This document shows positions 6,465-22,854 of a DNA stretch of 64,000 nt, one piece after another (position 1 is the first letter of the stretch; every line of letters starts with the position of its first letter). The notes below the pieces were generated by a model. The model made no database searches. It saw only the letters and a program-made list of their open reading frames with translations, and had not been told where the DNA came from. Source of the stretch: Rhizobium sp. CCGE 510 (GTDB taxonomy: Bacteria > Pseudomonadota > Alphaproteobacteria > Rhizobiales > Rhizobiaceae); the NCBI RefSeq assembly GCF_000292525.1, contig NZ_AEYF01000045.1, positions 186,001 through 250,000 on the forward strand, read 5' to 3'. Both the position numbers and the translations under genes were made by a program.

Positions 6465-6484
6465 GGCGCTTCTCCCTTCGCGGT

Positions 6485-7612
6485 TTACGCCGTGGACCCG
6501 ACGACGCCCTCGACCAGATAATTCATGCTCTCGAGCTCAATTGCGTCTTCGGCGTAGCTCTTGTCGGCAGCCACGACAGTGTCGCCTTTGTTGTCCTTCA
6601 ACGGACCCTTGAAGACCGAGAAGCCGCCCTTCATCATCTCCGCCTGCGTGGCCTCAAAAGCCTTGCGGCCCTCCGCGGACACGGCGGGGCCGAGCGCGCT
6701 CATCTTCACGAAGCCGTCCTTCAGGCCGCCACGCACGAAATTGCCGAGCTTTTCGCCGGCCTGCGCCTTCTTGACGAAGTCGCTGTAGACGTTGCCCCAG
6801 GCCCATTCGGCGCCGGTGAGGTACTTTTCGGGAGCAAGCGGGCTCTGGTTGGCGTGATAGCCGCAGACGAAGGCGCCGCGGCCGGCAGCCGTCTCGACGA
6901 CCACTTTGGGGCTGTCGACGTGGCAGGTGATGACGTCGGCGCCCTGGTCAACCAGCGCATTGGTAGCCTCGGCTTCCTTGACGGCGAGCGACCATTCACC
7001 GGTGAAGATCACCTGGCAGGTGATACCAGGATCGACTGCGCGCGCGCCAAGCAGGAAGGCGTTGATATTCTGCAGAACCTGCGGGATCGGCTTGGCGGCG
7101 ACGAAGCCGATCTTCTTGCTCTTTGTCGCATGGCCGGCGGCGATGCCGTTCAGATACTGGCCCTGGAAGATATAGCCGAAATAGGAGCCCGTATTGGCCG
7201 GGTGCTTGCCTTCCTGCCAGAGGCCGCCACAATGGCGGAACTGAACGTCGGGATGTTTAGCGGCCATGGCCAGCATGTGTGGGTCGAAATAGCCGAACGA
7301 GGTCGGAAAGAGCAGGGTCGCACCATCGAGATTGATCATCGACTCCATGGTCTTCTGGACATCGACGGTCTCCGGCACATTCTCTTCTTCGACCAGCGTC
7401 ACGCCCGGCAGCGCCTTGATGACGGCCGCGCCTTCCGCATGCGCCTGGTTATACCCGTAGTCGTCCTTGGGGCCGACATAGATGAAGCCGACGGTCAGCG
7501 CGGTTTGGGCTGCGGCGGAGGAGGCGATCAGGCCGGGCATGGCGCTGGCGAGTGCTCCGGCAGCGGAAGCCTGCAGGAAATTGCGGCGGTTCATGGAAAG
7601 GAGTTTGGTCAT
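6485..7612 (-). CDS. BMP-family ABC transporter, periplasmic substrate-binding protein
   Basis: A 375-aa BMP/Med-family binding protein. The N-terminus carries a twin-arginine signal (MNRRNFLQ, then an Ala-rich hydrophobic stretch ending near SSAAAQ), so it is probably exported folded by Tat. The mature part starts LTVGFIYVGPKDDYGYNQAH, typical of BMP-fold proteins that bind nucleosides, purines or similar heterocycles. I chose the ATG at 7612 because AAGGAG lies seven bases upstream; an earlier Met at 7675 falls on the sigma-54 promoter. First gene of the operon, 20 bp before the permease. Likely ligand: cyanuric acid or a related cyclic ureide, from gene context. Confidence 0.88.
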   Translation of the reverse strand: MTKLLSMNRRNFLQASAAGALASAMPGLIASSAAAQTALTVGFIYVGPKDDYGYNQAHAEGAAVIKALPGVTLVEEENVPETVDVQKTMESMINLDGATLLFPTSFGYFDPHMLAMAAKHPDVQFRHCGGLWQEGKHPANTGSYFGYIFQGQYLNGIAAGHATKSKKIGFVAAKPIPQVLQNINAFLLGARAVDPGITCQVIFTGEWSLAVKEAEATNALVDQGADVITCHVDSPKVVVETAAGRGAFVCGYHANQSPLAPEKYLTGAEWAWGNVYSDFVKKAQAGEKLGNFVRGGLKDGFVKMSALGPAVSAEGRKAFEATQAEMMKGGFSVFKGPLKDNKGDTVVAADKSYAEDAIELESMNYLVEGVVGSTA

Positions 7613-7666
7613 TGGAATGCTCCTTGCGGCGCTGGGCCGGTTGCGAAACAGGACAGCAAAGTGCAT

Positions 7667-7681
7667 GCAATGCATGTGCCA
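7667..7681 (-). promoter_or_regulatory. sigma-54 (RpoN) promoter of the cyanurate/biuret operon
   Basis: On the minus strand the sequence reads TGGCAC, five bases, TTGC, preceded by T and followed by A. This matches the -24/-12 consensus (YTGGCAC-N5-TTGCA) at every key base. The expected transcript start near 7655 leaves about 43 nt to the ATG at 7612. Sigma-54 implies NtrC-type nitrogen control, in line with the established nitrogen control of cyanuric acid genes in Pseudomonas ADP. The element is also nearly palindromic, which could mislead a reader into calling it an operator. Confidence 0.8.
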
Positions 7682-7951: not shown

Positions 7952-8626
7952 GTGAAGCAGGCCAAACGCAGAGAAGTCATCCGCACCGGAACCACCGTTG
8001 AACAGATGGTGAGGGCGATTTCCGACATGATCGTCACAGGCGAAATCCTGCCGGGTGGAAAGCTGGACGAGGTGTCGCTTGCGGCTCGTTTCGACGTTTC
8101 GCGCACGCCGGTCAGAGAAGCCTTGCGTGAACTCAGCGCGATGGGATTGGTTGCGCGCGAACCAAACCGCAGTGCCGTCGTTACCAATGTCACCGAGGCC
8201 TACCTGCATTCGATGTTCGAGGCGATGGCGGAACTCGAAGCGATCTGCGCCAGGCTCTCGGCCGAGCGTATGACGGTCGATGAACGGCGGGCGCTGGAAC
8301 TGGATCATCGGGGATCGGTGAAGCTGGTGCATGCCGGTGCGGAAGAGGAATATTCGGCTCACAACACCGAATTTCACACCCGGCTTTATCGCGGCGCGCA
8401 TAACGATCATGTCTTCGAGATGGTGACTCAGACGCGGGCGCGGCTCGCGGCTTTTCGGCGGGCGCAGTTCCGTCTGCCCGGGCGTCTGGCGAAATCCTAT
8501 GAAGAGCACGGCCGGATCGTGACCGCGATCATGCGCGCGGACGCCGCCGCCGCGGGGCAGGCGGCATATTCCCACGTGGAAATTGTCAGCGATGCCAGCG
8601 CGGTATTTGCAACGCCTGGGGAATAG
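7952..8626 (+). CDS. GntR-family transcriptional regulator (FCD subfamily)
   Basis: A 224-aa regulator. The N-terminal winged helix-turn-helix (residues about 15-80) includes the GntR signature LAARFDVSRTPVREALREL. The C-terminal all-helical FCD domain (about 85-215) carries acidic and His residues that usually bind a metal and an organic acid. The start is GTG at 7952. It is divergent from the cyanurate operon, with paired near-palindromes in the shared region, so it probably controls that operon and itself. Its ligand is likely a pathway intermediate (inference). Confidence 0.88.
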   Translation: MKQAKRREVIRTGTTVEQMVRAISDMIVTGEILPGGKLDEVSLAARFDVSRTPVREALRELSAMGLVAREPNRSAVVTNVTEAYLHSMFEAMAELEAICARLSAERMTVDERRALELDHRGSVKLVHAGAEEEYSAHNTEFHTRLYRGAHNDHVFEMVTQTRARLAAFRRAQFRLPGRLAKSYEEHGRIVTAIMRADAAAAGQAAYSHVEIVSDASAVFATPGE

Positions 8627-10474: not shown

Positions 10475-11788
10475 TCAGGAGACAACCTTGATCGAAAGGC
10501 TGTCGAGATAGGCGGACGGATTCTCAGGGTCGAAGACCTTGCCGTCGAAGAAGGTCTCCTTGCCCCGGGAAGACGAGGCGGGAATATCGGCCGCCGCGAC
10601 ACCGAGATCCTTGGCGGCCTCGCGCCAGATATCTTCGCGGTTCACCTGGTTGACCAGCGCCTTGATGTCGGTACTCGCCGGCAGATTTCCCCAGCGGATG
10701 TTTTCCGTCATGAACCAGGTATCGTGGCTCTTGAACGGATAGGAGGCGCCATCTTTCCAGAACTTCATGTAGAGGTCGGTGGCCTTGACCTCGCGGCCGT
10801 TGCCATAATTGATGTCACCCTTGAGGCGGCCGAGCACGTCCTTGGTCGGGACGTTGAACCATTGGCGCTTGCCGAGGATATCTGCCATCTCCGCCTTGTT
10901 ATCCATGCTGTCGCACCACTGCTGGGCCTCCATGACAGCCATCAGCAGGGCCTTGGCAGCATTGGGGTTCTTTTCGATCCATTCGGCGCGGAGCCCCAGC
11001 GCCTTTTCGGGATGACCCTTCCAGAGCTCGCCGGTGGTAGCCGCGGTGAAGCCGATGCCCTGGTTGACGAGCTGCTCGTTCCACGGTTCGCCCACACAGA
11101 AGACGTCCATGTTGCCGACCTTCATATTGGCAACCATCTGCGGCGGCGGCACGACGATGGTCGAAACGTCCTTGTTTGGATCGATGCCGCCGGCGGCGAG
11201 CCAATAGCGGATCCAGAGGTCGTGGGTGCCACCCGGGAAGGTCATGGCGGCCTTGATCTCTTTGCCTTCCGCCTTCTTTTTCTCGAACGCGGCCTTCAGC
11301 TTGGAGGCATCGAGCTGCACGCCGGTATCGGCATATTCCTTGGCGACGGAAATGCCCTGGCTGTCGAGGTTGAGCCGGGCGAGGATCGCCATCGGCACCG
11401 GCTTGTTGTTCTGCGTCACCTTGCCGGTATGCATCAGATAGGGCAGCGGCGAGAGGATATGGGCACCATCGATGCCGTTTGCTGCGCCGCCCAGCACGAG
11501 ATTGTCGCGGGTTGCGCCCCAGGATGCCTGTTTGGCCACATCCGTTTCCGGAAGACCATGTTTGTCGAAAAAGCCCTTTTCTCTGGCGATGATCAGCGGC
11601 GCGGAATCCGTGAGAGCGATAAAGCCGAGCTTGACGCCTTTCACTTCAGGGCCCGCCCCGGCGGCAAAAGCGCCAGAGGGAAAGGCAGTCTTGACAGCGC
11701 CGATGAGGGCAGCCGCTGCGGTCGTCTTGAGCATGCTGCGGCGGGTGATGCCGGTTGTTGAAATCCCAGTGGTCGAAGTCTTCGTCAT
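10475..11788 (-). CDS. nrtA: nitrate-type ABC transporter, substrate-binding protein
   Basis: A 437-aa binding protein of the NrtA/CmpA family. It has a twin-arginine signal (TRRSMLKTTAAAALIG) and an Ala-rich segment ending near GAFAAG. Family hallmarks are FIALTDSAPLIIAREKGFF, DGAHILSPLPYLMHTG and the loop VGEPWNEQLVNQGIGF, typical of nitrate binders rather than sulfonate binders. The ATG at 11788 follows AGAGGGAAC; an upstream in-frame Met at 11875 lies in the leader. First gene of the operon, about 160 nt downstream of a sigma-54 promoter. Cyanate or bicarbonate are alternatives within the family. Confidence 0.85.
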   Translation of the reverse strand: MTKTSTTGISTTGITRRSMLKTTAAAALIGAVKTAFPSGAFAAGAGPEVKGVKLGFIALTDSAPLIIAREKGFFDKHGLPETDVAKQASWGATRDNLVLGGAANGIDGAHILSPLPYLMHTGKVTQNNKPVPMAILARLNLDSQGISVAKEYADTGVQLDASKLKAAFEKKKAEGKEIKAAMTFPGGTHDLWIRYWLAAGGIDPNKDVSTIVVPPPQMVANMKVGNMDVFCVGEPWNEQLVNQGIGFTAATTGELWKGHPEKALGLRAEWIEKNPNAAKALLMAVMEAQQWCDSMDNKAEMADILGKRQWFNVPTKDVLGRLKGDINYGNGREVKATDLYMKFWKDGASYPFKSHDTWFMTENIRWGNLPASTDIKALVNQVNREDIWREAAKDLGVAAADIPASSSRGKETFFDGKVFDPENPSAYLDSLSIKVVS

Positions 11789-11924
11789 GCGCAGGTTCCC
11801 TCTGCTGGCCGAATTCGGACACAAAAAAACGCCGCCGGAATTTACGTCCAGGGATGGGAGAATCCTGGAGTGCAAAGACCTTGCGACGTCGGTGTCTAAT
11901 GCAGGCGCTTATGCCGCGCCTATC

Positions 11925-11950
11925 CGCACCGGTCGCCGTTGACCGGTGCG
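11925..11950 (-). promoter_or_regulatory. leader-RNA hairpin with ANTAR-type hexaloop
   Basis: On the minus strand a perfect 10-bp stem (CGCACCGGTC / GACCGGTGCG) closes a six-base loop, AACGGC. A in loop position 1 and G in position 4 are the conserved bases of ANTAR (NasR/NasT) RNA targets. The hairpin begins at the transcript start expected from the sigma-54 element. A run of seven U about 100 nt later could be the terminator it controls. The usual second hexaloop is not clear. Confidence 0.55.
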
Positions 11951-11960
11951 TCTTAGAACT

Positions 11961-11976
11961 TGCAAGCAGCGTGCCA
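11961..11976 (-). promoter_or_regulatory. sigma-54 (RpoN) promoter of the nrt operon
   Basis: On the minus strand: TGGCAC, GCTGC, TTGCA, a full match to the -24/-12 consensus with the right spacing. The predicted start is near 11951. This points to NtrC-dependent expression under nitrogen limitation and supports a nitrogen compound as transport substrate. Confidence 0.8.
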
Positions 11977-12034
11977 ATTTCGAGAAGAGTTGGTAACGGT
12001 ATGAAGCAAAAGGAGAAATGCGAAGAATTAATAA

Positions 12035-12235
12035 ATGCCTATTTCTTGGGCGTTATTATTTTTGCTTTCGTTTTGTGCGATTACTGCCGTGACCACAGTC
12101 ATGGGAGCGCTCTATTTGTGCAGTGCACGCAATATGGAAGTCGCGATGAGGCAGACGGGAGAATGGATTCTGCCCGCCCTATTCGTCGGTATTGCCACTG
12201 GGAGGGCGCAAGAGGGGAAGGCCAATGCGAGGTGA
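12035..12235 (+). CDS. possible small membrane protein
   Basis: A 66-aa frame with two hydrophobic stretches (about residues 4-30 and 42-56) and a polar tail, divergent from nrtA and convergent with pit. There is no strong ribosome-binding site before the ATG, and I recognise no family. Membrane-like composition is the only reason to list it; it may be chance. Confidence 0.25.
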   Translation: MPISWALLFLLSFCAITAVTTVMGALYLCSARNMEVAMRQTGEWILPALFVGIATGRAQEGKANAR

Positions 12236-12256
12236 TTGCCTCGCGATCACCTCATT

Positions 12257-13261
12257 TCATTGCAGCAAAGCTACGAGGCCGTAGAACGCTGCGGATATTG
12301 CCGCAGCCGCCGGCATCGTTACGATCCAGGCTATCACGATGTTGCCGGCCAATCCCCAGCGCACGGCTGAAACACGACGAGCCGCGCCCACTCCAACGAT
12401 TGCCCCGGTGATGGTATGCGTCGTCGAAACGGGAATACCGAGCCACGTCGCCCCGAAGAGTGTCAACGCTCCGCCCGTCTCTGCGCAGAAACCTTGCATG
12501 GGGTTGAGCCGAGTGATCTTCGACCCCATGGTATGAACGATCCGCCATCCGCCAAAAAGCGTCCCGAGAGCCATTGCCGACTGGCAGGAAATGACCACCC
12601 AGAACGGCACGTAGAATGTCGGGCCAAGATATCCTTGGCTGAACAACAGTACCGCAATGATGCCCATCGTCTTCTGCGCATCGTTCCCGCCGTGGCCAAG
12701 CGAGTAGAGCGACGCGGACACAAACTGCATGACGCGAAATGTCCGATCCACCGCAAACGGCGTTTGCCGGACGAATAACCAGGAGACGGCGAGCACCAGC
12801 ACGAGGGCGAGCAGGAAGCCGAGGGCTGGCGACAGGAAAATGGCACCGACGGTCTTTAGGAGGCCGTTCCAGACGATTGAGCTGAAACCTACCTTTGCCA
12901 GGCCGGCCCCCACCAGCCCACCGACAAGCGCATGCGACGAACTGGACGGAATCCCGAAAATCCAGGTGAGAATATTCCAAATGATAGCGCCCATCAGTGC
13001 GGCGAAGATCACTTGAGGCGAAACGATCACAGGATCGATGATGCCGGTTCCCAGTGTTTCGGCCACATGCAGACCGAAGAACAGGAATGCGATGAAATTG
13101 AAGAACGCCGCCCAGGCGACCGCATATTGTGGCCGCAGGACGCGGGTCGAGACGATCGTGGCGATCGAATTGGCCGCATCGTGCAGACCGTTGAGAAAGT
13201 CGAAGAACAGGGCGACAACGACCAGGCCGACGAGCAGCGGCAAAGCGAGGGTGGCATCCAT
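12257..13261 (-). CDS. pit: low-affinity inorganic phosphate transporter Pit
   Basis: A 334-aa PiT-family (PHO4) permease with ten or so membrane helices. It shows the two inverted PiT signature regions, FDFLNGLHDAANSIATIV near residue 20 and GIPVSTTHTITGAIVG near residue 280, plus GIPSSSSHALVGG and SLGHGGNDAQKTMG between them. It imports metal-phosphate by proton coupling. The start overlaps the stop of the DUF47 gene by one base (TGATG). The pair matches the orfA-pit operon of Sinorhizobium meliloti, where PhoB represses it under phosphate limitation. Confidence 0.93.
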   Translation of the reverse strand: MDATLALPLLVGLVVVALFFDFLNGLHDAANSIATIVSTRVLRPQYAVAWAAFFNFIAFLFFGLHVAETLGTGIIDPVIVSPQVIFAALMGAIIWNILTWIFGIPSSSSHALVGGLVGAGLAKVGFSSIVWNGLLKTVGAIFLSPALGFLLALVLVLAVSWLFVRQTPFAVDRTFRVMQFVSASLYSLGHGGNDAQKTMGIIAVLLFSQGYLGPTFYVPFWVVISCQSAMALGTLFGGWRIVHTMGSKITRLNPMQGFCAETGGALTLFGATWLGIPVSTTHTITGAIVGVGAARRVSAVRWGLAGNIVIAWIVTMPAAAAISAAFYGLVALLQ

Positions 13262-13905
13262 CAGACGTTCTCGATGAGAATGCCGCTGATCTCGTTGGCG
13301 ACATCCTCGAAGCGGTCGACCACTTTCTCCAGCTCTCCGTAGATTTCGCTTCCGATCAGGTAGGCCATCGCATTGCCGCTGGCGCCATGACGCACAAACA
13401 GATCCTTCAAGCCTTGGTCGTGGAGCTCATCGGAACGTCCCTCCACTCGGGTGACCTCCTCCGCGATGGCTGCGAGACGCTGCGCATTGGCTCCCAATTT
13501 GTCGAGAAGGGGTATCGCCTCGGCGACAAGATTTGCCGCCTTGACGATTTCACTGCCCATCTGCTGCATGAGCGGATCGAAGCAGGATTGCTCGAACAAA
13601 CGGATCGTCTTGACGGTTTTGTGCATCATGTCGATTGCATCATCCATCGACTGAATAAGGTCTTTGATGTCCCCCCGGTCGAAGGGCGTGATGAAGCTTC
13701 GCCGAACGGCAAGAAGAACCTCACGCGTGACGTCGTCGGCCTCGTTTTCCAAGGTGACGATACGTTCACAGTTTTTCTGAACGTCATTGCCCTTCAGGAG
13801 TTGATCGAGGGCGTGCGCCGCGGCAACGACGGTCTTCGAATGCTTGGAAAACATTTCAAAGAATCTGTCTTCCCGTGGCATCAGCTTGCGAAAAATGCTC
13901 ATCAT
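13261..13905 (-). CDS. Pit accessory protein, DUF47 family (OrfA)
   Basis: A 214-aa, almost wholly alpha-helical protein of the DUF47 (PhoU-like) family, encoded directly upstream of pit in many bacteria. It contains the helix bundle repeats with acidic and Asn clusters (TLENEADDVTREVL, GRSDELHDQGLKDL) thought to bind metal. It acts in the cytoplasm, probably adjusting Pit activity. Two adjacent ATG codons (13905, 13902) are both possible. A Pho box lies 28-45 bp upstream of the start. Confidence 0.9.
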   Translation of the reverse strand: MMSIFRKLMPREDRFFEMFSKHSKTVVAAAHALDQLLKGNDVQKNCERIVTLENEADDVTREVLLAVRRSFITPFDRGDIKDLIQSMDDAIDMMHKTVKTIRLFEQSCFDPLMQQMGSEIVKAANLVAEAIPLLDKLGANAQRLAAIAEEVTRVEGRSDELHDQGLKDLFVRHGASGNAMAYLIGSEIYGELEKVVDRFEDVANEISGILIENV

Positions 13906-13932
13906 GCCTGCGAACCTTTCTCGTGCGGCCGA

Positions 13933-13950
13933 CTGTCATAAATGTGTCAT
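13933..13950 (+). promoter_or_regulatory. Pho box (PhoB binding site)
   Basis: CTGTCATAAATGTGTCAT: two heptamers (CTGTCAT and GTGTCAT) separated by AAAT, 13 of 14 heptamer bases matching the PhoB consensus. It points toward the NUDIX gene, 50 bp before that start codon, and lies just upstream of orfA-pit on the other strand. Activation of the NUDIX gene and repression of orfA-pit are both possible from one site. Confidence 0.75.
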
Positions 13951-14000
13951 AAACACGCCCACGCAATTGAAGCAACAAGCAAATCGGCTACTCCATCGCT

Positions 14001-14534
14001 ATGACGCCTCGCAAAAAAGGCAGGAAGCCTCGACTGGACAAATCCCAGCCACTGCTGCGGCAGCTCGCTGCTGTTCCTGACACGTTGTTCGCCGGCGCAT
14101 TCCGCCAACAATATGGCGCACTTTGCTTCCGCCATGGCAATGCCGGATCCGAGGTCGAAATCCTGGTGATCACATCGCGCGAGAGCGCACGCTGGGTCAT
14201 CCCGAAAGGGTGGCCGATGAAAGGGAAAAAGCCTTTCGAAGCAGCAGCAATCGAAGCATGGGAGGAGGCAGGCGTGCGCGGGCTGGTGAAGAAGAAGCCG
14301 GTCGGACGCTATACCTATCTCAAAGAATTCGACAATGGCGACGTAGCCCCCTGTATCGTCGACATGTTTCAGCTTGAAGTCACGGAAATCAGCGGCGATT
14401 TCAAGGAGCGGGGTCAGCGTATTCTCGAATGGGTCAGCCCGGATGAAGCGGCACGACGCGTTCGCGAGATCGAACTCAAGTCGCTACTCGTCCAATTTGA
14501 AGTGCGCGGTCGCAAGAAACGCGATCGCGGCTGA
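14001..14534 (+). CDS. NUDIX hydrolase (diphosphoinositol-polyphosphate hydrolase-like)
   Basis: A 177-aa NUDIX-fold protein. The NUDIX box lies at about residues 69-92 and ends AAIEAWEEAGV. The metal-binding EE pair is intact, but the usual first Glu of the box is Lys and the usual Arg is Ile. The first change is common in DIPP-type enzymes (substrates: diphosphoinositol phosphates, diadenosine polyphosphates, polyphosphate); the second is unusual. A basic N-terminus (PRKKGRKPRLDK) precedes the fold. The gene is divergent from orfA-pit behind a Pho box, which suggests a role in phosphate starvation (inference). Confidence 0.85.
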   Translation: MTPRKKGRKPRLDKSQPLLRQLAAVPDTLFAGAFRQQYGALCFRHGNAGSEVEILVITSRESARWVIPKGWPMKGKKPFEAAAIEAWEEAGVRGLVKKKPVGRYTYLKEFDNGDVAPCIVDMFQLEVTEISGDFKERGQRILEWVSPDEAARRVREIELKSLLVQFEVRGRKKRDRG

Positions 14535-14560
14535 CCGCTGACACCTTTCCGCACGATGCT

Positions 14561-14665
14561 CTAAAGCGCGTCGCATATAACTTGATTCCTTCGACGCGCT
14601 TTAGCTCTTTGTTTTTATGCATGTCGTTATCCGGGAACCGCTGCACACTTCCCGGCGACATGCAT
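14561..14665. repeat. RIME1-like intergenic double palindrome
   Basis: Two hairpins in 105 bp. The first is a perfect 13-bp inverted repeat (CTAAAGCGCGTCG at 14561-14573 with its complement at 14592-14604). The second has a 10-bp outer arm (ATGCATGTCG at 14617-14626; complement 14656-14665) and a 7-bp inner arm (CCGGGAA; complement 14649-14655). Size and structure fit RIME1, the intergenic element scattered through Rhizobium genomes. Its last base is the last base of the adjoining permease stop codon, so it also forms the 3' end of that operon. Confidence 0.75.
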
Positions 14666-15576
14666 TATCGCTCGAATGGTTCGCCGAGCGAAGCGACGCC
14701 GTTCAATTTCAGTAGGCGCCGATCGGCGGAGATGACGCCGAGCACGATGATCGTGACGAGATAGGGCAGGCTCGACAGTAGCTGCGAGGGAACGTCCAGT
14801 CCGGTTGCCTGGGCCGCAAGCCCCATCAGCGAGACAGCGCCGAAGAGGCAGGCGCCGAGGAAGATGCGACCGGTGAGCCAAGTCCCGAAGACGACGAGGG
14901 CGATGGCGATCCAGCCGCGTCCGGCGATCATCCCGTCAGCCCAGAGTGGTGTGTAGACGACCGCCGCATAGGCACCGGCGAAGCCGGCCATCGCGCCGCC
15001 GAAGGCGATGGCGAGGATACGGACCGATATCACCGAATAGCCGATGGCGTGGGCGGCCTTCGGGTTCTCGCCAACGGCGCGGACGATGAGACCAAGCTTG
15101 GTGTGGGCAAGTATGGCCCAAAGAGCGAGGGTCGCGGCGAGCGAAATCCACACCACGATGTCCTGGACGAAAAGGCCGCCAATCGCCGGCAGTTCCGAAA
15201 GCCCCGGAATAGCGAGCTTTGGAAGACCCTTGACCGTCAGGCTCTCATAGGTCTTGCCGAAGAGGGCCGAGAGGCCTTGGCCAAAAATGCCGATGGCAAG
15301 GCCGGCGGCCACCTGGTTTGCCCGGAACCCGAGCGTAACGAAGGCAAAAAGCAGGGAAAGCGCGGCGCCGCCAAGCCCTGCGACGATGAAGCCGAGAAGA
15401 TGTCCGCCGCCATGATAAACGACGATGAAGGCGAGCACGGCGCCAAGGGCCATCAATCCCTCGACCCCGAGGTTGAGGACACCGGCGCGCTCGGCCACCA
15501 GTTCGCCGAGGGCTGCCAGAAGAAACGGTGTCGCAGCCGCAAGCATGCCGGCAAGGATGAACTCGATGGCGTTCAT
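14665..15576 (-). CDS. BMP-family ABC transporter, permease 2 (purine-demethylase operon)
   Basis: A 303-aa membrane protein of the short BMP permease class, with about eight to ten helices and the INLGLEG-like region here as LNLGVEGLMALGAV. The ATG at 15576 overlaps the previous stop by four bases (ATGA); ten extra upstream codons in frame are shadow. Last gene of the eight-gene operon, ending at the RIME1-like element. It resembles the permease at 4411-5337 in type, so the window holds two complete BMP importers. Confidence 0.88.
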   Translation of the reverse strand: MNAIEFILAGMLAAATPFLLAALGELVAERAGVLNLGVEGLMALGAVLAFIVVYHGGGHLLGFIVAGLGGAALSLLFAFVTLGFRANQVAAGLAIGIFGQGLSALFGKTYESLTVKGLPKLAIPGLSELPAIGGLFVQDIVVWISLAATLALWAILAHTKLGLIVRAVGENPKAAHAIGYSVISVRILAIAFGGAMAGFAGAYAAVVYTPLWADGMIAGRGWIAIALVVFGTWLTGRIFLGACLFGAVSLMGLAAQATGLDVPSQLLSSLPYLVTIIVLGVISADRRLLKLNGVASLGEPFER

Positions 15577-16673
15577 GGCAGGCTCCGCTGGGCGGTGCGG
15601 CGCCATTCAAGACGATAACGCACGAAGGCGACGGCGATCAGGTAGGCGAGAAGCAGACTACCCTGGAAGACACGGACGGCGGCAATCGGCAGGCCGGCCG
15701 AGACCATGGCATTGTCGCCGCCGATATAGATAACCGCCATGACCAGCGCCGAGACCACGATGCCGATCGGATGCAGGCCGCCGAGATAGGCGACGATGAT
15801 GGCGGCATAGCCATAACCGCTCGCGACCGAACGCTGCAGCTGGCCGAGCGGACCGGCAACTTCGGCGGCGCCGGCAAGGCCGGCGGCAAAACCGCCGATC
15901 AGCAGCGAAAGCCAGATCGCCCACCCCTCCCTGAAGCCGGCGTAGCCGGCAGCCCGCGGCGCCAGGCCGCCGACCTGGAGCTTGTAGCCGATGAAGCTCT
16001 TCTGCATGAAGACCCAGGCCGCAACCGACAAAACGAGGGTGATGAGGAAGGAGACGTTGACGCGCGTACCGGCAATCAGGGTCGGCACCATCGCATCGTA
16101 CTGGAACATCACCGACTGCGGGAAATTGAAGCCGTTCGGATCCTTCCAGGGGCCGAGCAGCAGATAGTTCAACAATTGCGCGGCAACGAGGCTCAGCATC
16201 AGCGAAACGAGGATCTCATTGGCATTAAGGCGCACGCGCCAGAAGGCGGTGAGAGAAGCCCAAATCGCCCCGCCGATGGCGCCGAGCAGCAGCATCACCG
16301 GCCAGATCCACTGGCCCGTCGCCTGGGGAAACCAGACCGGAATGGCTGAGGCGAAGATCGCGCCAAGGATAAACTGGCCTTCGGCGCCGATATTGAAAAC
16401 CTTGGCGCGAAAGCCGATTGCCAGCCCCTGGGCGATGAGGAGGAGGGGCCCCGCCTTTAACAGCACTTCTGAAAACGACGCCCAGGAAAGGAAGGGCTCG
16501 AAAAGCATCGCGTAGACGACCGCGACGGGGTCGCGACCCATCAAAACGTAGAGCCCGAGATTAAGTGCGATCGCACCCCCGAGCGCGATGACGGGTGCGC
16601 CCAAGGCCGCAGCCAGCGAGGCGCGCTCCCGGCGGACAAGGGTGGGAACGGAAGCAGGGAACCAGACACTCAT
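15573..16673 (-). CDS. BMP-family ABC transporter, permease 1 (purine-demethylase operon)
   Basis: A 366-aa polytopic permease of the longer BMP class. It has the characteristic FRAKVFNIGAEGQFILGAIF stretch at about residues 88-107 and several following helices. It overlaps the ATPase stop by one base (TAATG) and the next permease by four, so all three are translated together. Confidence 0.9.
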   Translation of the reverse strand: MSVWFPASVPTLVRRERASLAAALGAPVIALGGAIALNLGLYVLMGRDPVAVVYAMLFEPFLSWASFSEVLLKAGPLLLIAQGLAIGFRAKVFNIGAEGQFILGAIFASAIPVWFPQATGQWIWPVMLLLGAIGGAIWASLTAFWRVRLNANEILVSLMLSLVAAQLLNYLLLGPWKDPNGFNFPQSVMFQYDAMVPTLIAGTRVNVSFLITLVLSVAAWVFMQKSFIGYKLQVGGLAPRAAGYAGFREGWAIWLSLLIGGFAAGLAGAAEVAGPLGQLQRSVASGYGYAAIIVAYLGGLHPIGIVVSALVMAVIYIGGDNAMVSAGLPIAAVRVFQGSLLLAYLIAVAFVRYRLEWRRTAQRSLP

Positions 16674-18193
16674 TATTGAACTTTCTCGGGCGAGGTATGT
16701 GCCCCGATCATATATCGGCCGACTTCCTCGGGCTTGATGTCCCGCGTTGCGAGCGGCGGGCTGAGCCGGCCGTGATGCAGCACCTGGATGGAATCGCAGA
16801 GCTCGAACAGTTCTTCCAGCTCCTCGGAAATGACGAGGATCGCCATGCCCTGATTGCGCAACGCGACCAGGCGGCTGCGGATGGCGGATGCAGCGCCGAC
16901 GTCGACGCCCCAGGTCGGCTGCGCCACGAAAAGCAATTTCGGAGACAGCATGATTTCCCGGCCGACGATGAACTTCTGCAGGTTGCCGCCGGACAGGGTG
17001 CCGGCTTCCGCATCCGGGCCGGATGTGCGGACATCATACTGACGGATACAATCCTTGGTGAACGTCATCGCCCGTGCCCTTTCGATGAGACCACGCCGTA
17101 AAAGCTTGAGCGGGTGGGCCGTCAGCAGGCTGTTGAGGACAAGTGACATTTCGGGCACGGCGCCGCGTCCGAGCCGGTCTTCCGGAACGAAGGCAAATCC
17201 GAGCTGCCGCCGCGCTGCGGCATCGAGCCTGCCGACATCCATTCCCATCATGTAGATCCGGTCGCGTTGTTCGCGCCCCAGCATGGTCTCGCCTGAAATC
17301 AGCGCGGCAAGCTCGCTTTGGCCGTTGCCCGAAATACCGGCGATCCCGAGGATTTCGCCGGCACGGACCTCGAGGCTAAGGCCGGAGAGCGGCACCGCAA
17401 AAGGATCGTCGGGCTGGTGGTCCAGACCGATGATCTCCAGCCGCTTTTCCCCGCCAGACAGCGGCAGCGCCGAGGTGGGTGCGGGCATATCGCGGCCGAT
17501 CATCATCCGGGCAAGGTCATGGGCATCATGCTCGCGCGGGTCGACATCGCCGGTCACGCGTCCGCCGCGCAGGATCGTCGCGCGATCACAGATCGCCCGA
17601 ATTTCTTCGAGCTTGTGGGAAATCAGCAGGATCGAAACGCCACCGTCGCGCAACCGGCGCAGGGTGTCGAAGAGCTTCTCCACCAATTGCGGCGGCAGGA
17701 CAGAGGTGGGCTCGTCAAGGATCAGCAGCTTCGGATTGGTCATCAGGCTTCGGATGATCTCCACCCGTTGCCGCTCGCCGACGGACAGCGCATGCACATG
17801 GGCAAGCGGATCGACTTCGAGGCCGAACTCCCGTCCAAGCGTCCGGATACGTTCCCTGAGATCAGATTTTCGGCCCGGCACCACCAACTGAATGTTCTCG
17901 ATGACCGTCAAGGTCTCGAACAGCGAAAAGTGCTGGAAGACCATGCCGATGCCCTTGCGCCTCGCCTCCGCGGGGGAGGCGAGGCGCAAGGGTGTTCCTT
18001 CCCAGACGACATCTCCGTCATCCGGCTGCTCGACACCGTAGATCAGCTTCATCAGCGTCGATTTTCCCGCCCCGTTTTCCCCGAGGATCGCATGGATCGA
18101 TTGCGGAGCTACGTCCAGATCGATTGCCTGATTGGCGTGGATCTGGCCGTAGCTTTTCGAAATGCTGCGCAGCGACAGGAGCGGGGTGGTCAT
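16673..18193 (-). CDS. BMP-family ABC transporter, double ATP-binding protein
   Basis: A 506-aa ATPase with two nucleotide-binding domains. Domain 1: Walker A GENGAGKST, signature LSVGERQRVEI, Walker [10 protein letters not shown]. Domain 2: relaxed P-loop GISGNGQSE, signature LSGGNLQKFIVGRE, Walker B LLFVAQPTWGVD, the pattern usual in nucleoside/sugar double ATPases. It starts three bases after the binding-protein stop. Confidence 0.92.
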   Translation of the reverse strand: MTTPLLSLRSISKSYGQIHANQAIDLDVAPQSIHAILGENGAGKSTLMKLIYGVEQPDDGDVVWEGTPLRLASPAEARRKGIGMVFQHFSLFETLTVIENIQLVVPGRKSDLRERIRTLGREFGLEVDPLAHVHALSVGERQRVEIIRSLMTNPKLLILDEPTSVLPPQLVEKLFDTLRRLRDGGVSILLISHKLEEIRAICDRATILRGGRVTGDVDPREHDAHDLARMMIGRDMPAPTSALPLSGGEKRLEIIGLDHQPDDPFAVPLSGLSLEVRAGEILGIAGISGNGQSELAALISGETMLGREQRDRIYMMGMDVGRLDAAARRQLGFAFVPEDRLGRGAVPEMSLVLNSLLTAHPLKLLRRGLIERARAMTFTKDCIRQYDVRTSGPDAEAGTLSGGNLQKFIVGREIMLSPKLLFVAQPTWGVDVGAASAIRSRLVALRNQGMAILVISEELEELFELCDSIQVLHHGRLSPPLATRDIKPEEVGRYMIGAHTSPEKVQ

Positions 18194-18196
18194 GAT

Positions 18197-19294
18197 TTAT
18201 TTCGGCAGCGGCGTCGAGACGCCCTTGACGTGCCAGTTCATGGCGATGATCTCGGGGTCGGCCATGGTTGCGCCGGATGCGACACCTGCGCTGCCGTCAG
18301 CCTTGGTGAGCGGCCCGGTAAAGGGCGAGAAGCTGCCGTCGGCGATCTTTGCCTCGACCTCTTTGATCTTGGTCATCACGTCGGCCGGAATACCGGGGTT
18401 CCAGTCGACCACTTCGACGACCTTGTCGGCGACGCCGAGGAACGCATTGGCTCCCTTGAACGTACCGGCGAGATGGGCATCGACCGAAGCCTTGAAGAAG
18501 GGCGACCAGTCCGTCGAGACGCAGCCGAGATAGGTTTTCGGCGCATACTTCTTCATCGACGAGTTGAGGTTGAAGGCGTAGACGCCGGCGTCTTCACAGG
18601 CCGAGATGACGGATGGCGTGTCCTGGGCATTGGAGAAAATCACGTCGCACTTCTGTGCGATCAGCGCCTTGGCGGCCTCCTGCTCCTTGGCCGGGTCGAA
18701 CCAGGAATTGACCCAGACGACGGAGACTTCGATATCCGGCTTCACCGCCTGGGCGCCGAGTGTAAAGGCGTTGATCGAGGTAATAAGCTCGGGAATGGCA
18801 AAGGCCGAGACGGAGCCGAGCTTGCCGGTCTTGGAAAGTGCTGCCGCGGCCATGCCGAGCAGATAGGTGCCCTGGAAATACTTGGCGGCGAACGGCGAGA
18901 AATTCGGAGCAACCTGGAAGCCGGAGGCATGCAGGACCGTCACGCTCGGATCACGGCGGGCGATCTGCAGGGCGCCGTTCTGATAGCCGAACGAGCCGGC
19001 AATCAGGAACTTGTTTCCGTCGGCGACAGTCTTGGTCATGATGCGGTCGGCGTCCGGGCCTTCGGCGATATTCTCAAGCACGGTGACCTTCACCTTGTCG
19101 CCGTAAGCGGCCTTGATCGGCTCGAGACCGGCGGCGAGAGCGTGACCCCAGCCGACATCGCCGATCGGCGACGGAACGACGAGGGTGATGCCGAGCGGCT
19201 GGTCGGCGGCGAAAGCAAGGCGGCTGCCGAGCGCGCCGGCAAGGCCGGTGGCGGCAGCGGCCGTCATCAGGTTTCTACGGGTCAGTTTGGTCAT
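18197..19294 (-). CDS. BMP-family substrate-binding protein, purine/nucleoside type
   Basis: A 365-aa periplasmic binding protein with a twin-arginine signal (LTRRNLMTAAAATGLAG, ending near RLAFAAD). The mature chain starts LGITLVVPSPIGDVGWGHAL, typical of the BMP fold; conserved ligand-loop features follow (SFGYQNGALQIA, NAQDTPSVI). The start is uncertain between ATG 19294 and GTG 19300; AAGGGA lies ten or four bases upstream respectively. BMP proteins commonly bind purine nucleosides or bases, which fits a purine-modifying operon. Confidence 0.88.
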   Translation of the reverse strand: MTKLTRRNLMTAAAATGLAGALGSRLAFAADQPLGITLVVPSPIGDVGWGHALAAGLEPIKAAYGDKVKVTVLENIAEGPDADRIMTKTVADGNKFLIAGSFGYQNGALQIARRDPSVTVLHASGFQVAPNFSPFAAKYFQGTYLLGMAAAALSKTGKLGSVSAFAIPELITSINAFTLGAQAVKPDIEVSVVWVNSWFDPAKEQEAAKALIAQKCDVIFSNAQDTPSVISACEDAGVYAFNLNSSMKKYAPKTYLGCVSTDWSPFFKASVDAHLAGTFKGANAFLGVADKVVEVVDWNPGIPADVMTKIKEVEAKIADGSFSPFTGPLTKADGSAGVASGATMADPEIIAMNWHVKGVSTPLPK

Positions 19295-19318
19295 GTTCAC
19301 GGGTTCCCTTTTTGGTTT

Positions 19319-20698
19319 TTAGAATTTCACGGCTGCGAGTGCAGCCTCGGCGTCGGCAGAGAGCTTGGCCTCGTCGAGACCGGGGAATTCCCCCTCCTGC
19401 CAGACGATACGGCCATTGATCATCGTCATATCGGTCGCCATGCCGATGCCAACGCGGGCAATCAGGCTCAACGGATCGTGCCGCGTACCGACATAATCCA
19501 TGCGACGCGTGTCGATCGCAAACAGGTCGGCTGCCATGCCGGGCGCCAGCCGGCCGATGTCGCGTCGGCCGAGCAGGCTGGCACCCCCCGTCGTGCCGTA
19601 GCCGAGGAAATCGACGGGCGGTGGCACGGGATGGGCGCGGCTGGAGGATACCAGGCACTGCAGCATGTAGGCGGAGTGCAGGCAGTGCATCAGGTTGGAA
19701 TTGTCGTTGGAGGCGGCCCCGTCGCAGCCAAGGCCGATGCGCAGGCCGAAGCCAGCCATGGCGGGAATGTCGGTGACCTCGGCGCCGACCAGATAGACCG
19801 GTTCGGGGCAGTGCGCCACGCCGGTGCCGCTGGCCGCCATCCGCCTCAGCTCGTCGTGGGTCAGCTCCCAGCAATGGGCATAGAAGGCGTCGGTCCCGGC
19901 AAAGCCGAGTTCTTCCAGATAATCGACCGTGCGCATGCCATGACGAACCTGCATGACCGGGCTTTCGCCCTCGCCGACATGGGTGTGCATCATGACGCCG
20001 CGATCACGCGCCAATGCCACCGATTCCACGAAGGTCTCGCGATAGCAATTCACCGGCTGGCAGGGCGCCACTACCACCTGGCGCATGCTGAACGGGTTGG
20101 CATCGTGGTAAGTGTCGATCAGCCGGGCGCAGTCGGCGATGAATTCGTCGGTCGTTTCCAGCATCTCGTCGGGAATGGTCGAGCCCTCCGACTTCGGCAG
20201 GGTATTGCCGCCGCGGCCGGCGTGGAAGCGCATGCCGAGCAGCTCGGCTGCCTCGAATTGGCGGTCGATCAACCGCTTCCCGGCGTGGCGGGGGAAATTG
20301 TATTGGTGATCCAAGGCCGTGGTGCAGCCATGTTTGATCATCTCGGCCATCGCTGTGACGGAGGAGTGGTAAAAACACTCCTCGTTGAGCTGCGAAAAGA
20401 TCGGGTAGATCCGATCCAGCCACTCGATCACCGAGAGCTTCGTCCAGTCGAGATCGGCGCGATTGCGCACGAAGCACTGGAAAAAATGATGATGGGTGTT
20501 GACGAGTCCTGGATAGACGAACCAGCCGGCAGCATCCTGAACGGTCGTGCCGGCGGGAAGCGCGTCCGCCGCCAGATTTTCGCCGATCGCCACAATCGCC
20601 GGACCATCGGTCAGCAGATCGACATTGCGACGGACGACCGGCCCCTTGCCCTCGTCGACGATCACGGCCGCGCAGTTCTTCAGGAGATATCCAGCCAT
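19319..20698 (-). CDS. amidohydrolase, 8-oxoguanine deaminase-like
   Basis: A 459-aa metal-dependent deaminase of the amidohydrolase superfamily, in the branch that includes 8-oxoguanine deaminase, isoxanthopterin deaminase and the s-triazine hydrolases AtzB/TrzN. Metal ligands are visible: H69 and H71 (VNTHHHFF), H240 (MHTHVGEGE), H275 (FYAHCWEL) and D326 (GLGCDGAASNDNSNL). The GCDG.ASND.SNL stretch is typical of 8-oxoguanine deaminase. No signal peptide, so cytoplasmic. It starts one base after the GST-like gene. Expected reaction: hydrolytic removal of an exocyclic amino group from a purine- or pterin-like ring taken up by the adjacent importer. The exact substrate cannot be read from sequence. 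Confidence 0.82.
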   Translation of the reverse strand: MAGYLLKNCAAVIVDEGKGPVVRRNVDLLTDGPAIVAIGENLAADALPAGTTVQDAAGWFVYPGLVNTHHHFFQCFVRNRADLDWTKLSVIEWLDRIYPIFSQLNEECFYHSSVTAMAEMIKHGCTTALDHQYNFPRHAGKRLIDRQFEAAELLGMRFHAGRGGNTLPKSEGSTIPDEMLETTDEFIADCARLIDTYHDANPFSMRQVVVAPCQPVNCYRETFVESVALARDRGVMMHTHVGEGESPVMQVRHGMRTVDYLEELGFAGTDAFYAHCWELTHDELRRMAASGTGVAHCPEPVYLVGAEVTDIPAMAGFGLRIGLGCDGAASNDNSNLMHCLHSAYMLQCLVSSSRAHPVPPPVDFLGYGTTGGASLLGRRDIGRLAPGMAADLFAIDTRRMDYVGTRHDPLSLIARVGIGMATDMTMINGRIVWQEGEFPGLDEAKLSADAEAALAAVKF

Positions 20699-20699
20699 G

Positions 20700-21362
20700 T
20701 CACGCCTCGCCCGGTTCTTCGATATGAGGTTCGGGCTTCAATTCGTGCAGCCGGTGAATGCCCGGCATTTCGATAAACCGGTCGAGCGCGCGCAGCGCCC
20801 GCGACCAGAGCCGGATGGCGGGATAGGAATCCAGCGTCACGCCCCCGTCGGGCGCCAGCGCCACGTAGGGAAAGCAGGCGATGTCGGCAATTGTCGGCCG
20901 GTCGGCGGCGAGGAAGCGCATGCCGCGAAGACCCTGCTCGACAAGCCCCGCCTCGAGCTCGCGAAGTGCTGCGATGCCCTGGGCCTGCAGCACGCCGATA
21001 TCGCCCGGCCGCAGCAGCATCTCATGAAGCCGCGCGCCGCCAAGGCTTGCCGTCAGCCGGCCGGAGAACGACAGCCATTGCTGAACCTTTGCCGCTTCTT
21101 CGGCCTTGCCGCTGCCAAGCCATTCGGGCGCTGCCTTGGCGGCGAGATAGACGAGGATTGCCGACGATTCGGTCAGGATCAGATCGCCATCCTCCAGGAT
21201 TGGAATGGAGCCTGCCGGATTGAGGGCGAGAAGCGCGGAACCGCGATGCTCGGCGCCGGGATGGAAATCCACCGGCCGGAGTTCCAGCTTCACGCCGGTC
21301 AGCGCCGCCATCAGCCGCACCTTGTAGCAACTGGGGGAGAGAATGTAGTCGTAGAGCTTCAT
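20700..21362 (-). CDS. glutathione S-transferase-like protein (NdmE-like position)
   Basis: A 220-aa GST with a thioredoxin-fold N-terminal half (starting MKLYDYILSPSCYKVRLMAA, with the cis-Pro motif GSIPILED and TESSAILVYL for the glutathione gamma-glutamyl group) and a helical C-terminal half (SLADIA-like helix here RPTIADIACFPYV). It overlaps the oxygenase stop by four bases (ATGA) and lies one base from the amidohydrolase. In P. putida the GST homolog NdmE is a structural member of the N7-demethylase complex NdmCDE. The same gene company here suggests the same scaffold role, although a true glutathione-dependent step is possible. Confidence 0.82.
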   Translation of the reverse strand: MKLYDYILSPSCYKVRLMAALTGVKLELRPVDFHPGAEHRGSALLALNPAGSIPILEDGDLILTESSAILVYLAAKAAPEWLGSGKAEEAAKVQQWLSFSGRLTASLGGARLHEMLLRPGDIGVLQAQGIAALRELEAGLVEQGLRGMRFLAADRPTIADIACFPYVALAPDGGVTLDSYPAIRLWSRALRALDRFIEMPGIHRLHELKPEPHIEEPGEA

Positions 21363-22204
21363 TGCGCCACCAGCTGTGCGCCATAGGTATAATTGTGACG
21401 CTTCAGCCAGCGCCGGTAAGCGATCGATGTGAGATCGGCCCGCGTCGGGATTTCCATGCCGGGATCGAGTGGCAGAAGCGGCGGTATCTGGTTTTCCAGG
21501 ATCGAACGGTCCTGCAGGAAGATCGTCTGCTGGAAGTGGATGAGGTCGGTCATCGCGGTCTCGTCATCGAAAAGCGCCATCCACGGCCAGACGTCGCACA
21601 GGTCCTCGGCCAGCGGCTGCACGAAGAGCGTGATGACATCCCATTCGCTCGGGCGCGGCGGGCAGGTTTTGTAAAGCACGGAACAGGTCGGTGCCGGCAC
21701 GCGGTACATATACTCCGTGGTGATCCCGCCGCTTGCCGATTTGGCGGCCTGCGGCTGGTAAAACTTCACCTGCGTTGCCCAGACTTCGTCTTCCTCCTCG
21801 CGGATCTCGACCTTGTAGTTCTGAACTTCGGTGTGCGGCTCCGCGCCGAGAATGTCGGTGTGGACGAAGGGGAAATGGGCGACGTCGAGGAAGTTCTCGA
21901 CGGCGCGCAGCGGCGAGCAGCGTACCCGCACCACGCCGACGTCGACGAAACGGCGGCCGGGCTGGTCGGCCTCGGGGATCGGGAAAATTTCCTTCTTCGG
22001 CTCGCCGAGCGAAGACCAGACATGGCCGTAACGTACGCGCACCGGCAGAACACGGCCGTTGCCGCCCGTCACCCGCGCATTGCCATCGGCGTCGCGCGCC
22101 ACGTCGATCGGCTCGCCCATCAGCGCCGTCTTGCGACCGGCGCTGTCGAGCTGACTGAAAAGCCCGACCGGATACCATTCGTCGATCATCGCCTGCATGC
22201 TCAC
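21359..22204 (-). CDS. Rieske-type oxygenase catalytic subunit without Rieske cluster (NdmC-like)
   Basis: A 281-aa protein with the non-heme iron catalytic domain of Rieske oxygenases: bridging residues N104 and D107, iron ligands H110 and H115 (ENFLDVAHFPFVH) and a late Asp in FLQDRSILENQ. The first 70 residues still read like a Rieske domain (DEWYPVGLF at the start, RVRYGHVWSSLGEP at the end), but the two Cys/His loops that hold the [2Fe-2S] cluster are missing. It must therefore take electrons from another protein, most simply the Rieske protein encoded just upstream, whose stop it overlaps by four bases (GTGA). GTG 22204 has AAGGAG seven bases ahead. The same arrangement is known for NdmC of the caffeine pathway. 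Confidence 0.85.
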   Translation of the reverse strand: MSMQAMIDEWYPVGLFSQLDSAGRKTALMGEPIDVARDADGNARVTGGNGRVLPVRVRYGHVWSSLGEPKKEIFPIPEADQPGRRFVDVGVVRVRCSPLRAVENFLDVAHFPFVHTDILGAEPHTEVQNYKVEIREEEDEVWATQVKFYQPQAAKSASGGITTEYMYRVPAPTCSVLYKTCPPRPSEWDVITLFVQPLAEDLCDVWPWMALFDDETAMTDLIHFQQTIFLQDRSILENQIPPLLPLDPGMEIPTRADLTSIAYRRWLKRHNYTYGAQLVAQ

Positions 22205-22854
22205 CGCGCGATCTCCTTTTTCTGAAGATCCTCAGCCCCGCGGCGCAGGCTTTCGGCGGCCCGCGAAGCGTCGATGGCTGCAGCAGGGCCGGCGTCACCC
22301 TTCAGCAGCACATGGATCAGCGTCTGCCCGTCGTGCTGAGCAGATAATAGCAGGCAGAGGCTGCCGGTGGATGCGTCGATCTTGACAAGTCCGTCAGGGT
22401 TCGCCTTCGCGCCGGCTGCCGCCTCGATCGCGGCAATGCCGGCAAACGCCGTCAGCGAGCGCTGGGGAATGAGGCCGTCGAGCCTCGGCGGCTTCGACGC
22501 GGGCGTCCCGACGGCCACCCAGATCAGGCTGCCCGCTTCCTCGACTTCATGGGTGGCGACACGGATGGTTTCCGGCGGCGCCAGCCCTGGATGGGCGGGA
22601 ATGCGCAGACAGTTTCCGGTCTGGCCATAGCTCCAGCCGTGGTAGATGCAGGAAAGCGCCTCGCCGCGCACGAAGCCATGGGATAAGCGCATGCCGCGGT
22701 GCGGACAGCGATCCGCCGATGCCGATATACGCCCCGAAGCGCTGCGCCAGAGGGCAATCGATCCGGATGCCGTCCGGGCCGGCATGACGGTTGCGGCCGG
22801 CAGATCCCGGGAAAGGGCGACTGGCGTCCAAAAGCCGGTCGTATCGGATGGCAT
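22201..22854 (-). CDS. stand-alone Rieske [2Fe-2S] protein
   Basis: A 217-aa protein. The N-terminal 115 residues form an oxygenase-type Rieske domain with all four ligands: C50, H52 (CPHRGMRLSHG), C69 and H72 (CIYHGWSYG). The C-terminal 100 residues are an Ala-rich region with no motif I know and contain no iron site, flavin or ferredoxin motif. It thus resembles the front part of NdmD without the reductase. First gene of the eight-gene operon; AGGAAG precedes the ATG. Expected role: pass electrons to the cluster-less catalytic subunit encoded next. The reductase that would feed it is not in this window. Confidence 0.85.
   Translation of the reverse strand: MPSDTTGFWTPVALSRDLPAATVMPARTASGSIALWRSASGRISASADRCPHRGMRLSHGFVRGEALSCIYHGWSYGQTGNCLRIPAHPGLAPPETIRVATHEVEEAGSLIWVAVGTPASKPPRLDGLIPQRSLTAFAGIAAIEAAAGAKANPDGLVKIDASTGSLCLLLSAQHDGQTLIHVLLKGDAGPAAAIDASRAAESLRRGAEDLQKKEIAR

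Follow-up and report, generated by a model that had tools for sequence, protein, structure and literature searches.

NdmCDE, the 7-methylxanthine N7-demethylase of Pseudomonas putida CBB5, is described in the passages of PMC4408171 that deal with it as very unique among Rieske oxygenases. In this enzyme the catalytic subunit carries no Rieske cluster, the Rieske module sits on a separate chain (NdmD) where it is fused to a reductase, and a glutathione S-transferase-like (GST-like) protein, NdmE, is the third component. Homologues of ndmCDE in Sinorhizobium and Mesorhizobium have already been reported by Summers et al., according to a mention in PMC4408171, and another Rieske-type enzyme acting on purines, HpxDE, appears in the relevant part of PMC7373994 as a molybdenum-independent (hypo)xanthine hydroxylase. 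Here we describe a nine-gene locus in a 64,000-nucleotide stretch of Rhizobium sp. CCGE 510 (hereafter the window, meaning the whole of that stretch; source genome 6.9 Mb, 142 contigs), in which a stand-alone Rieske protein (RSK) and an NdmC-like catalytic subunit (CAT) are encoded together with a GST-like protein, a pseudo-acylphosphatase (ACYP), an amidohydrolase (AMD) and a BMP-type importer. The reading that we tentatively favor is that this split purine oxygenase operon imports a guanine-type purine and most likely hydroxylates guanine or xanthine at C8.

Cluster and iron on separate chains

The [2Fe-2S] ligands of RSK (C50, H52, C69 and H72) are kept in all 49 aligned RSK sequences, and a Pfam search of the protein returned the Rieske family only. 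In CAT, the iron-site residues D107, H110, H115 and D232 are invariant in 55 of 55 aligned sequences, with H110, H115 and D232 as predicted iron ligands and D107 as the predicted bridging residue; none of these 55 sequences contains a Rieske motif, and Pfam found VanA_C in CAT and no Rieske domain. The CxH...CxxH motif and the two-His-one-carboxylate site of a one-chain oxygenase are thus divided between two proteins. AlphaFold2 single-chain models were obtained for both RSK (predicted local distance difference test, pLDDT, 94; predicted template modelling score, pTM, 0.89) and CAT (pLDDT 89, pTM 0.89). Residues 1-216 of the RSK model superpose on the full-length oxygenase GxtA (Z 20.0, 2.9 Å), and the CAT model superposes on SxtT across 271 residues (Z 32.3, 1.9 Å), with a Rieske-type domain at its N terminus that lacks the cluster-binding stretch. 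Since RSK aligns to the whole of GxtA, its residues from about 125 to 217 would be a reduced catalytic-type domain rather than a novel module; the protein resembles a complete oxygenase protomer whose catalytic domain has decayed, and we read RSK and CAT from these models as two oxygenase chains decayed in complementary ways. The predicted folds resemble those of SxtT/GxtA and NdmA/NdmB, although those oxygenases hold cluster and iron on one chain. Ordinary Rieske oxygenases pass electrons from the cluster in one subunit to the iron in the neighboring subunit, some 12-15 Å away, and pairing of RSK with CAT, which appears probable, would therefore give a working electron path.

Relatedness to NdmCDE was assessed with ndm reference genes chosen by synteny, that is, from loci whose neighbor is the orthologue of a solved methylxanthine demethylase (L-numbers label the homologous loci that were compared with the window locus). 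L054, from Paraburkholderia caffeinitolerans, lies beside an NdmA orthologue (649 bits) and L047, from Stutzerimonas, beside an NdmB orthologue (636 bits); the comparison was made against the ndm loci L047, L051 and L054 rather than strain CBB5 itself. CAT is 45% identical to NdmC of L054 (279 columns, 238 bits), RSK is 39% identical to residues 7-130 of NdmD of L054, and the GST-like protein is 39-42% identical to the proteins in the NdmE position of all three loci, bearing out the homology to NdmC, NdmE and the N-terminal part of NdmD anticipated in a preliminary description of this DNA. By sequence, NdmD looks like RSK plus a VanB-type reductase, whereas RSK, at 217 aa, gives a Rieske hit and no fused reductase. 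The window operon further differs from NdmCDE in adding the pseudo-acylphosphatase and, downstream, the deaminase and BMP importer. We call a locus split if it has an RSK-type Rieske gene that is not fused to a reductase and fused if it has an NdmD-type Rieske-reductase fusion.

In a tree of 82 catalytic subunits (picked from 135 listed), with three further proteins as outgroup, one clade (support 100/99) takes in 41 of the 42 split rows; it also holds four undetermined rows and lies apart from the fused rows, NdmC included; the single split row outside it is the planctomycete L118. By strict count the label "split" changes six times on this tree because of L118 and the undetermined rows. The suggestion that the Rieske part of an NdmCDE relative had become its own protein therefore holds as regards its stand-alone nature, but a break-up of NdmD is improbable, since the split clade lies apart from NdmC and RSK appears to be a decayed protomer. 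Nine alignment positions separate split from NdmC-type catalytic subunits at the thresholds chosen (at the position two before the last iron ligand, for instance, the split type has Leu and the NdmC type Gly); they could not be placed in a pocket, and we conclude nothing from them.

The preliminary description knew of no described rhizobial system of this kind, which has to be qualified by the ndmCDE homologues mentioned above. The Sinorhizobium and Mesorhizobium homologues (L043, L066 and L072) also encode these three protein families next to a BMP importer, but in them Rieske protein and reductase are fused, a pseudo-acylphosphatase was not found, and the catalytic subunits lie outside the split clade. 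For the split form, a search of the open-licence literature found no description, and no paper was found there that joins a Rieske protein with 8-oxoguanine deaminase or with 7-methylguanine, nor one that combines a Rieske protein, guanine deaminase, an ABC transporter and Rhizobium.

A pseudo-acylphosphatase and a conserved gene order

The ACYP gene, which was absent from the preliminary description, lies 152 bases upstream of the Rieske gene and is conserved with the RSK gene. A profile built from 41 members finds acylphosphatases of solved structure (best E 3.1e-6); the window protein itself reaches 20.2 bits against PF00708 (cut-off 22.5), which 22 of the 41 members match at E 0.01. In columns read from the profile alignment, the LGP motif is present in 41 of 41 members, arginine in none at one position and asparagine in two at another, positions that we take to be the catalytic residues of acylphosphatase.

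In a first set of loci, ACYP was present in 63 of 68 split entries (61 of 66 without two repeats of the window locus), in none of 45 fused entries and in none of seven without a recognised Rieske gene. A larger, overlapping set of 108 neighborhoods comprised 55 split loci, 48 fused loci and five that are neither (L064, L107, L112, L167 and L178); two of the latter, L167 with Rieske and pseudo-acylphosphatase matches and L178 with a long Rieske gene beside FrmA/FrmB, failed the class rules and were excluded. ACYP lies near 49 of the 55 split loci and none of the 48 fused loci, counts that, like the other associations below, are not independent, the loci being related and some of them near-copies, so that Fisher tests on these associations serve for description only. 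Of the six split loci without ACYP nearby, L044 looks like a broken fusion and L050 like a cut-off one, L172 has its ACYP on another contig, and L071, L118 and L119 gave no match. In L044 (positions 12850-14605), from plasmid pPp1290 of Pseudomonas putida 1290, the NdmD-like gene is annotated in three pieces and looks broken or mis-sequenced.

Across 397 genomes of the order, the ACYP profile matched 40 places at a score of at least 67 bits, one in each of 40 genomes; the next matches, at 51 bits, are taken to be ordinary acylphosphatases. All 40 genomes are among the 76 with a CAT match (E 1e-5), some of which are weak and may be ordinary one-chain oxygenases, and no match of at least 67 bits was found in the 36 remaining genomes with a CAT match or in the 321 without one. 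ACYP may serve the split oxygenase as a structural component or in its assembly.

Conservation of gene order in relatives, which the preliminary description had named as a check, was seen in many of them: the order ACYP-RSK-CAT-GST occurs in 21 of 29 other loci (L008-L028), the remaining eight (L029-L036) being rearranged or having a partial set in the short stretch covered. The amidohydrolase gene then follows in 11 of the 13 closest loci (L008-L020); in L160, which covers a longer stretch around one of the other two, this gene is missing and the binding-protein gene comes directly after the GST gene. On plasmid pRL10 of Rhizobium johnstonii 3841 all nine genes recur in identical order (orthologues RL_RS29065 to RL_RS29105; CAT 96% identical), and the best CAT matches among plasmid records, a search that may leave out records of the window's own genome, are on Rhizobium plasmids, with up to 98% identity. 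The nine-gene order also occurs in Agrobacterium, in the rhodobacterial Qingshengfaniella and in two assemblies (L110 and L121) of Granulosicoccaceae, a gammaproteobacterial family, and other split loci carry parts in rearranged order. Three loci (L170, L171 and L177) have one RSK gene with two CAT genes each. These loci hold one Rieske/GST/pseudo-acylphosphatase set, and the second CAT gene is beside a GMC oxidoreductase and pieces of a thiamine-diphosphate enzyme; possibly one electron module serves several oxygenase modules there.

Probable purine uptake and deamination, and the proposed reaction

The nearest solved relatives of the window binding protein are AtzT (272 bits) and 3s99 (269 bits), the latter deposited with adenine. 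According to the sections of PMC6834077 on ligand binding, AtzT kept guanine through purification and in the crystal (KD about 110 nM); its other ligands include ammeline (360 nM), adenine and 2-hydroxyatrazine (about 2 uM). With a deduced numbering offset, its guanine contacts S97, F98, E165, W194 and N218 are identical in the window protein, while Y45 is replaced by Trp and N220 by Asp; N169 reads as Ser in the alignment. The best solved relative of AMD is 7ww2, an 8-oxoguanine deaminase (E 1.1e-87). Deaminase-type genes lie near 35 of the 55 split loci versus three of the 48 fused loci, where this call, like that of Frm neighbors, is a BLAST score above 250 bits to a few reference proteins and not a curated one. 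When eight deaminase-type proteins from seven split loci were compared with curated models, four passed, two as 8-oxoguanine deaminases (cut-off 532; L042 with 669 bits and L177 with 581) and two as guanine deaminases (cut-off 375; L040 with 420 bits and L162 with 429), and in L162, L164 and L165 a guanine-deaminase gene ends the operon. The AtzT-like binding protein and the deaminase neighbors support the wiring to purine uptake and deamination suggested earlier; as for the "modified purine or pterin" then proposed as substrate, a guanine-type purine is favored and nothing was found that points to a pterin.

From these parts we infer the following complex, purine and reaction. The importer would take up a guanine-type purine base, and a heteromeric Rieske oxygenase would oxidise it, with RSK supplying the [2Fe-2S] cluster and CAT the mononuclear iron. 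Non-catalytic subunits of the complex would be the pseudo-acylphosphatase and, on the model of NdmE, the GST-like protein, and electrons would come from a reductase encoded outside the operon. Hydroxylation at C8 would convert guanine to 8-oxoguanine or xanthine to urate, and the deaminase would strip the 2-amino group before or after this step, taking guanine to urate. Since either order of steps yields urate, this would explain why guanine and 8-oxoguanine deaminases swap beside the same kind of oxygenase. HpxDE is likewise a Rieske oxygenase acting on purines, and a distant homologue of CAT, but HpxD carries a complete oxygenase on one chain, and in L045 a PDR/VanB reductase gene lies next to it.

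Several observations weigh against this scheme. The closest characterised relative, NdmC, is a demethylase. The gene for xanthine dehydrogenase, xdhB, is present in 40 of 40 split genomes versus 193 of the 357 others of the order (28 of the 36 others with a CAT match), which makes a second route to urate superfluous and agrees at least as well with an N7-demethylase feeding guanine or xanthine to xanthine dehydrogenase; a simple molybdenum-free replacement of xanthine dehydrogenase is rejected on the same count. AMD reaches 368 bits against PRK08203/NF006055, the 8-oxoguanine deaminase family, and, since the curated cut-off is 532, the earlier label "8-oxoguanine-deaminase-like" is right for a relative but not for a called member. 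Four of the eight scanned deaminase-type proteins pass no cut-off (the amidohydrolases of L121, with 403 of 532 bits, of L169 and of the second gene of L040, and the adenine-deaminase-like protein of L171), and the stretch examined around 20 of the 55 split loci holds no deaminase. The changes of AtzT N220 to Asp and N169 to Ser mean that the ligand preference of the window protein may differ. Finally, no reductase was found among the proteins of the operon by open reading frames (ORFs) and Pfam, nor a convincing partner elsewhere in the genome: the best VanB-type match (34%) was set aside as a dedicated partner because the neighboring ORF is, we presume, of the haem-dependent dimethylamine-oxidising kind, so that the reductase seems part of another oxidation cluster, and the second match, a longer protein, carries additional sequence at its N terminus. 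Among the split loci, the Paracoccus alcaliphilus operon (L042) does include a VanB-type reductase.

Part of the xdhB contrast will be shared ancestry. Judged by gene content, the split genomes carry purine-ring catabolism; in the window genome, xdhB (1368 bits, contig C28) lies about 4 kb from another amidohydrolase, a weak match (140 bits) to the 8-oxoguanine deaminase model.

Since the xdhB finding suits a demethylase at least as well, we hold C8-hydroxylation tentatively and weigh it against two doubtful alternatives, of which action on another ring is the less probable. In a 7-methylguanine pathway, the imported base would undergo N7-demethylation by RSK/CAT, with deamination before or after, and yield xanthine for xanthine dehydrogenase, the formaldehyde being handled by genes elsewhere. 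This agrees with the 45% identity of CAT to NdmC, whose complex acts on 7-methylxanthine, with the guanine-deaminase gene at the operon end in three loci (above the curated cut-off in L162) and with xdhB in every split genome. However, it leaves the curated 8-oxoguanine deaminases of two split loci unexplained, and 41 of 42 split catalytic subunits group apart from NdmC. The caffeine cluster, as PMC4408171 mentions, also carries formaldehyde-detoxification genes; FrmA/FrmB-type genes lie near just two of the 55 split loci versus 13 of the 48 fused loci (one FrmA and one FrmB, both of fused loci, pass curated cut-offs), so the gene context speaks weakly against N7-demethylation with release of formaldehyde.

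Alternatively, the split oxygenase could act on another imported ring, such as some other modified purine, a pterin or a triazine-like compound, with a deaminase matched to that ring. AMD reaches the curated cut-off of none of the 25 best-matching families listed, AtzT binds ammeline, adenine and 2-hydroxyatrazine as well (PMC6834077, same sections), and the adenine-deaminase-like neighbor in L171 (positions 11345-13144), which has BLAST relatives near 17 of the 55 split loci and is maybe a deaminase of a modified adenine, also stays below its cut-off (347 of 472 bits). Against this stand the guanine and 8-oxoguanine deaminases above cut-off in four related split loci and the mostly retained guanine contacts of the binding protein. 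It is very improbable that RSK is an ordinary Rieske ferredoxin for other enzymes and CAT a non-functional remnant, in an operon that would mainly be a purine importer with a deaminase; the lack of a reductase in the operon suits this view, but the CAT iron site is invariant, the RSK model has an oxygenase-type second domain, and the genes for RSK and CAT share 4 bases and are direct neighbors in L008-L028.

In its boldest form, C8-hydroxylation would define a new class of heteromeric Rieske oxygenase, in which two complementarily decayed chains, a GST-like protein and a dead acylphosphatase subunit hydroxylate guanine and 8-oxoguanine is a normal catabolic intermediate; we regard this as possible though somewhat unlikely. 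If true, a guanine C8-hydroxylase would give 8-oxoguanine deaminases an enzymatic source of substrate. The system makes the origin of the substrate of the bacterial deaminases directly testable. The placement of cluster and iron on different chains with a GST-like helper characterizes a purine-linked system found in many Alphaproteobacteria and a few assemblies outside them, which differs from NdmCDE in having no reductase fusion and a previously unrecognised fourth conserved protein, and such a set of small proteins lets electron transfer and oxygen activation be separated experimentally.

Features of the locus and further observations

The preliminary description had reported eight packed genes on the minus strand, encoding a Rieske protein, a catalytic subunit lacking cluster ligands, a GST-like protein, an amidohydrolase and a BMP importer, and ORFs and Pfam confirmed them (Table 1). 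Gaps between neighbors among these eight genes (window positions 14665-22854) range from -34 to +18 bases, and every ORF is intact.

Table 1. Genes of the split oxygenase locus, with positions in the window.
Feature	Position	Strand	Remarks
Pseudo-acylphosphatase (ACYP), 88 aa	23007..23273	-	Start codon placed by comparison with homologues; of acylphosphatase type but lacking the catalytic Arg/Asn
RSK, stand-alone Rieske protein, 217 aa	22201..22854	-	PF00355, 69.9 bits
CAT, NdmC-like catalytic subunit, 281 aa, GTG start	21359..22204	-	VanA_C PF19112, 70.8 bits
GST-like protein, NdmE homologue, 220 aa	20700..21362	-	PF02798 and PF13410 (GST N and C domains)
AMD, amidohydrolase, 459 aa, 8-oxoguanine deaminase relative	19319..20698	-	Amidohydro_1 and Amidohydro_3
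BMP-type substrate-binding protein, AtzT/3S99-like	18197..19300	-	PF02608
ATP-binding cassette (ABC) importer ATPase, two ABC stretches	16673..18193	-	PF00005 twice
ABC importer permease 1	15573..16673	-	PF02653 (BPD_transp_2)
ABC importer permease 2, start codon uncertain	14665..15606	-	PF02653; as called, 34-base overlap with permease 1

In other bacteria, the xanthine/urate motif NMT1 has been reported close to genes of the Rieske and deaminase types (PMC7373994, in the part on this motif). Riboswitch control was rejected for the loci studied here, as none of the six loci scanned gave an Rfam match at or above the gathering score, and NMT1 was not among the three sub-threshold matches of a permissive Rfam scan of window positions 8000-30000. 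At the end of the operon (14511-14673, minus strand) there is a sub-threshold match to BASRCI27, a Brucella small RNA family (46.7 bits, gathering score 59.8, E 2e-7).

The identity of a B6 ABC transporter, as modelled in NCBIfam, does not apply to the importer, whose four subunits score 86.5 of 400, 420 of 670, 159 of 400 and 171 of 465 bits. Elsewhere in the window, another BMP-type binding protein is encoded together with a BPD_transp_2 permease (5340-7675, minus strand, and 7952-8623, plus strand), adjoining a divergent GntR/FCD regulator; this set may be a further importer of purines or nucleosides on the same replicon.

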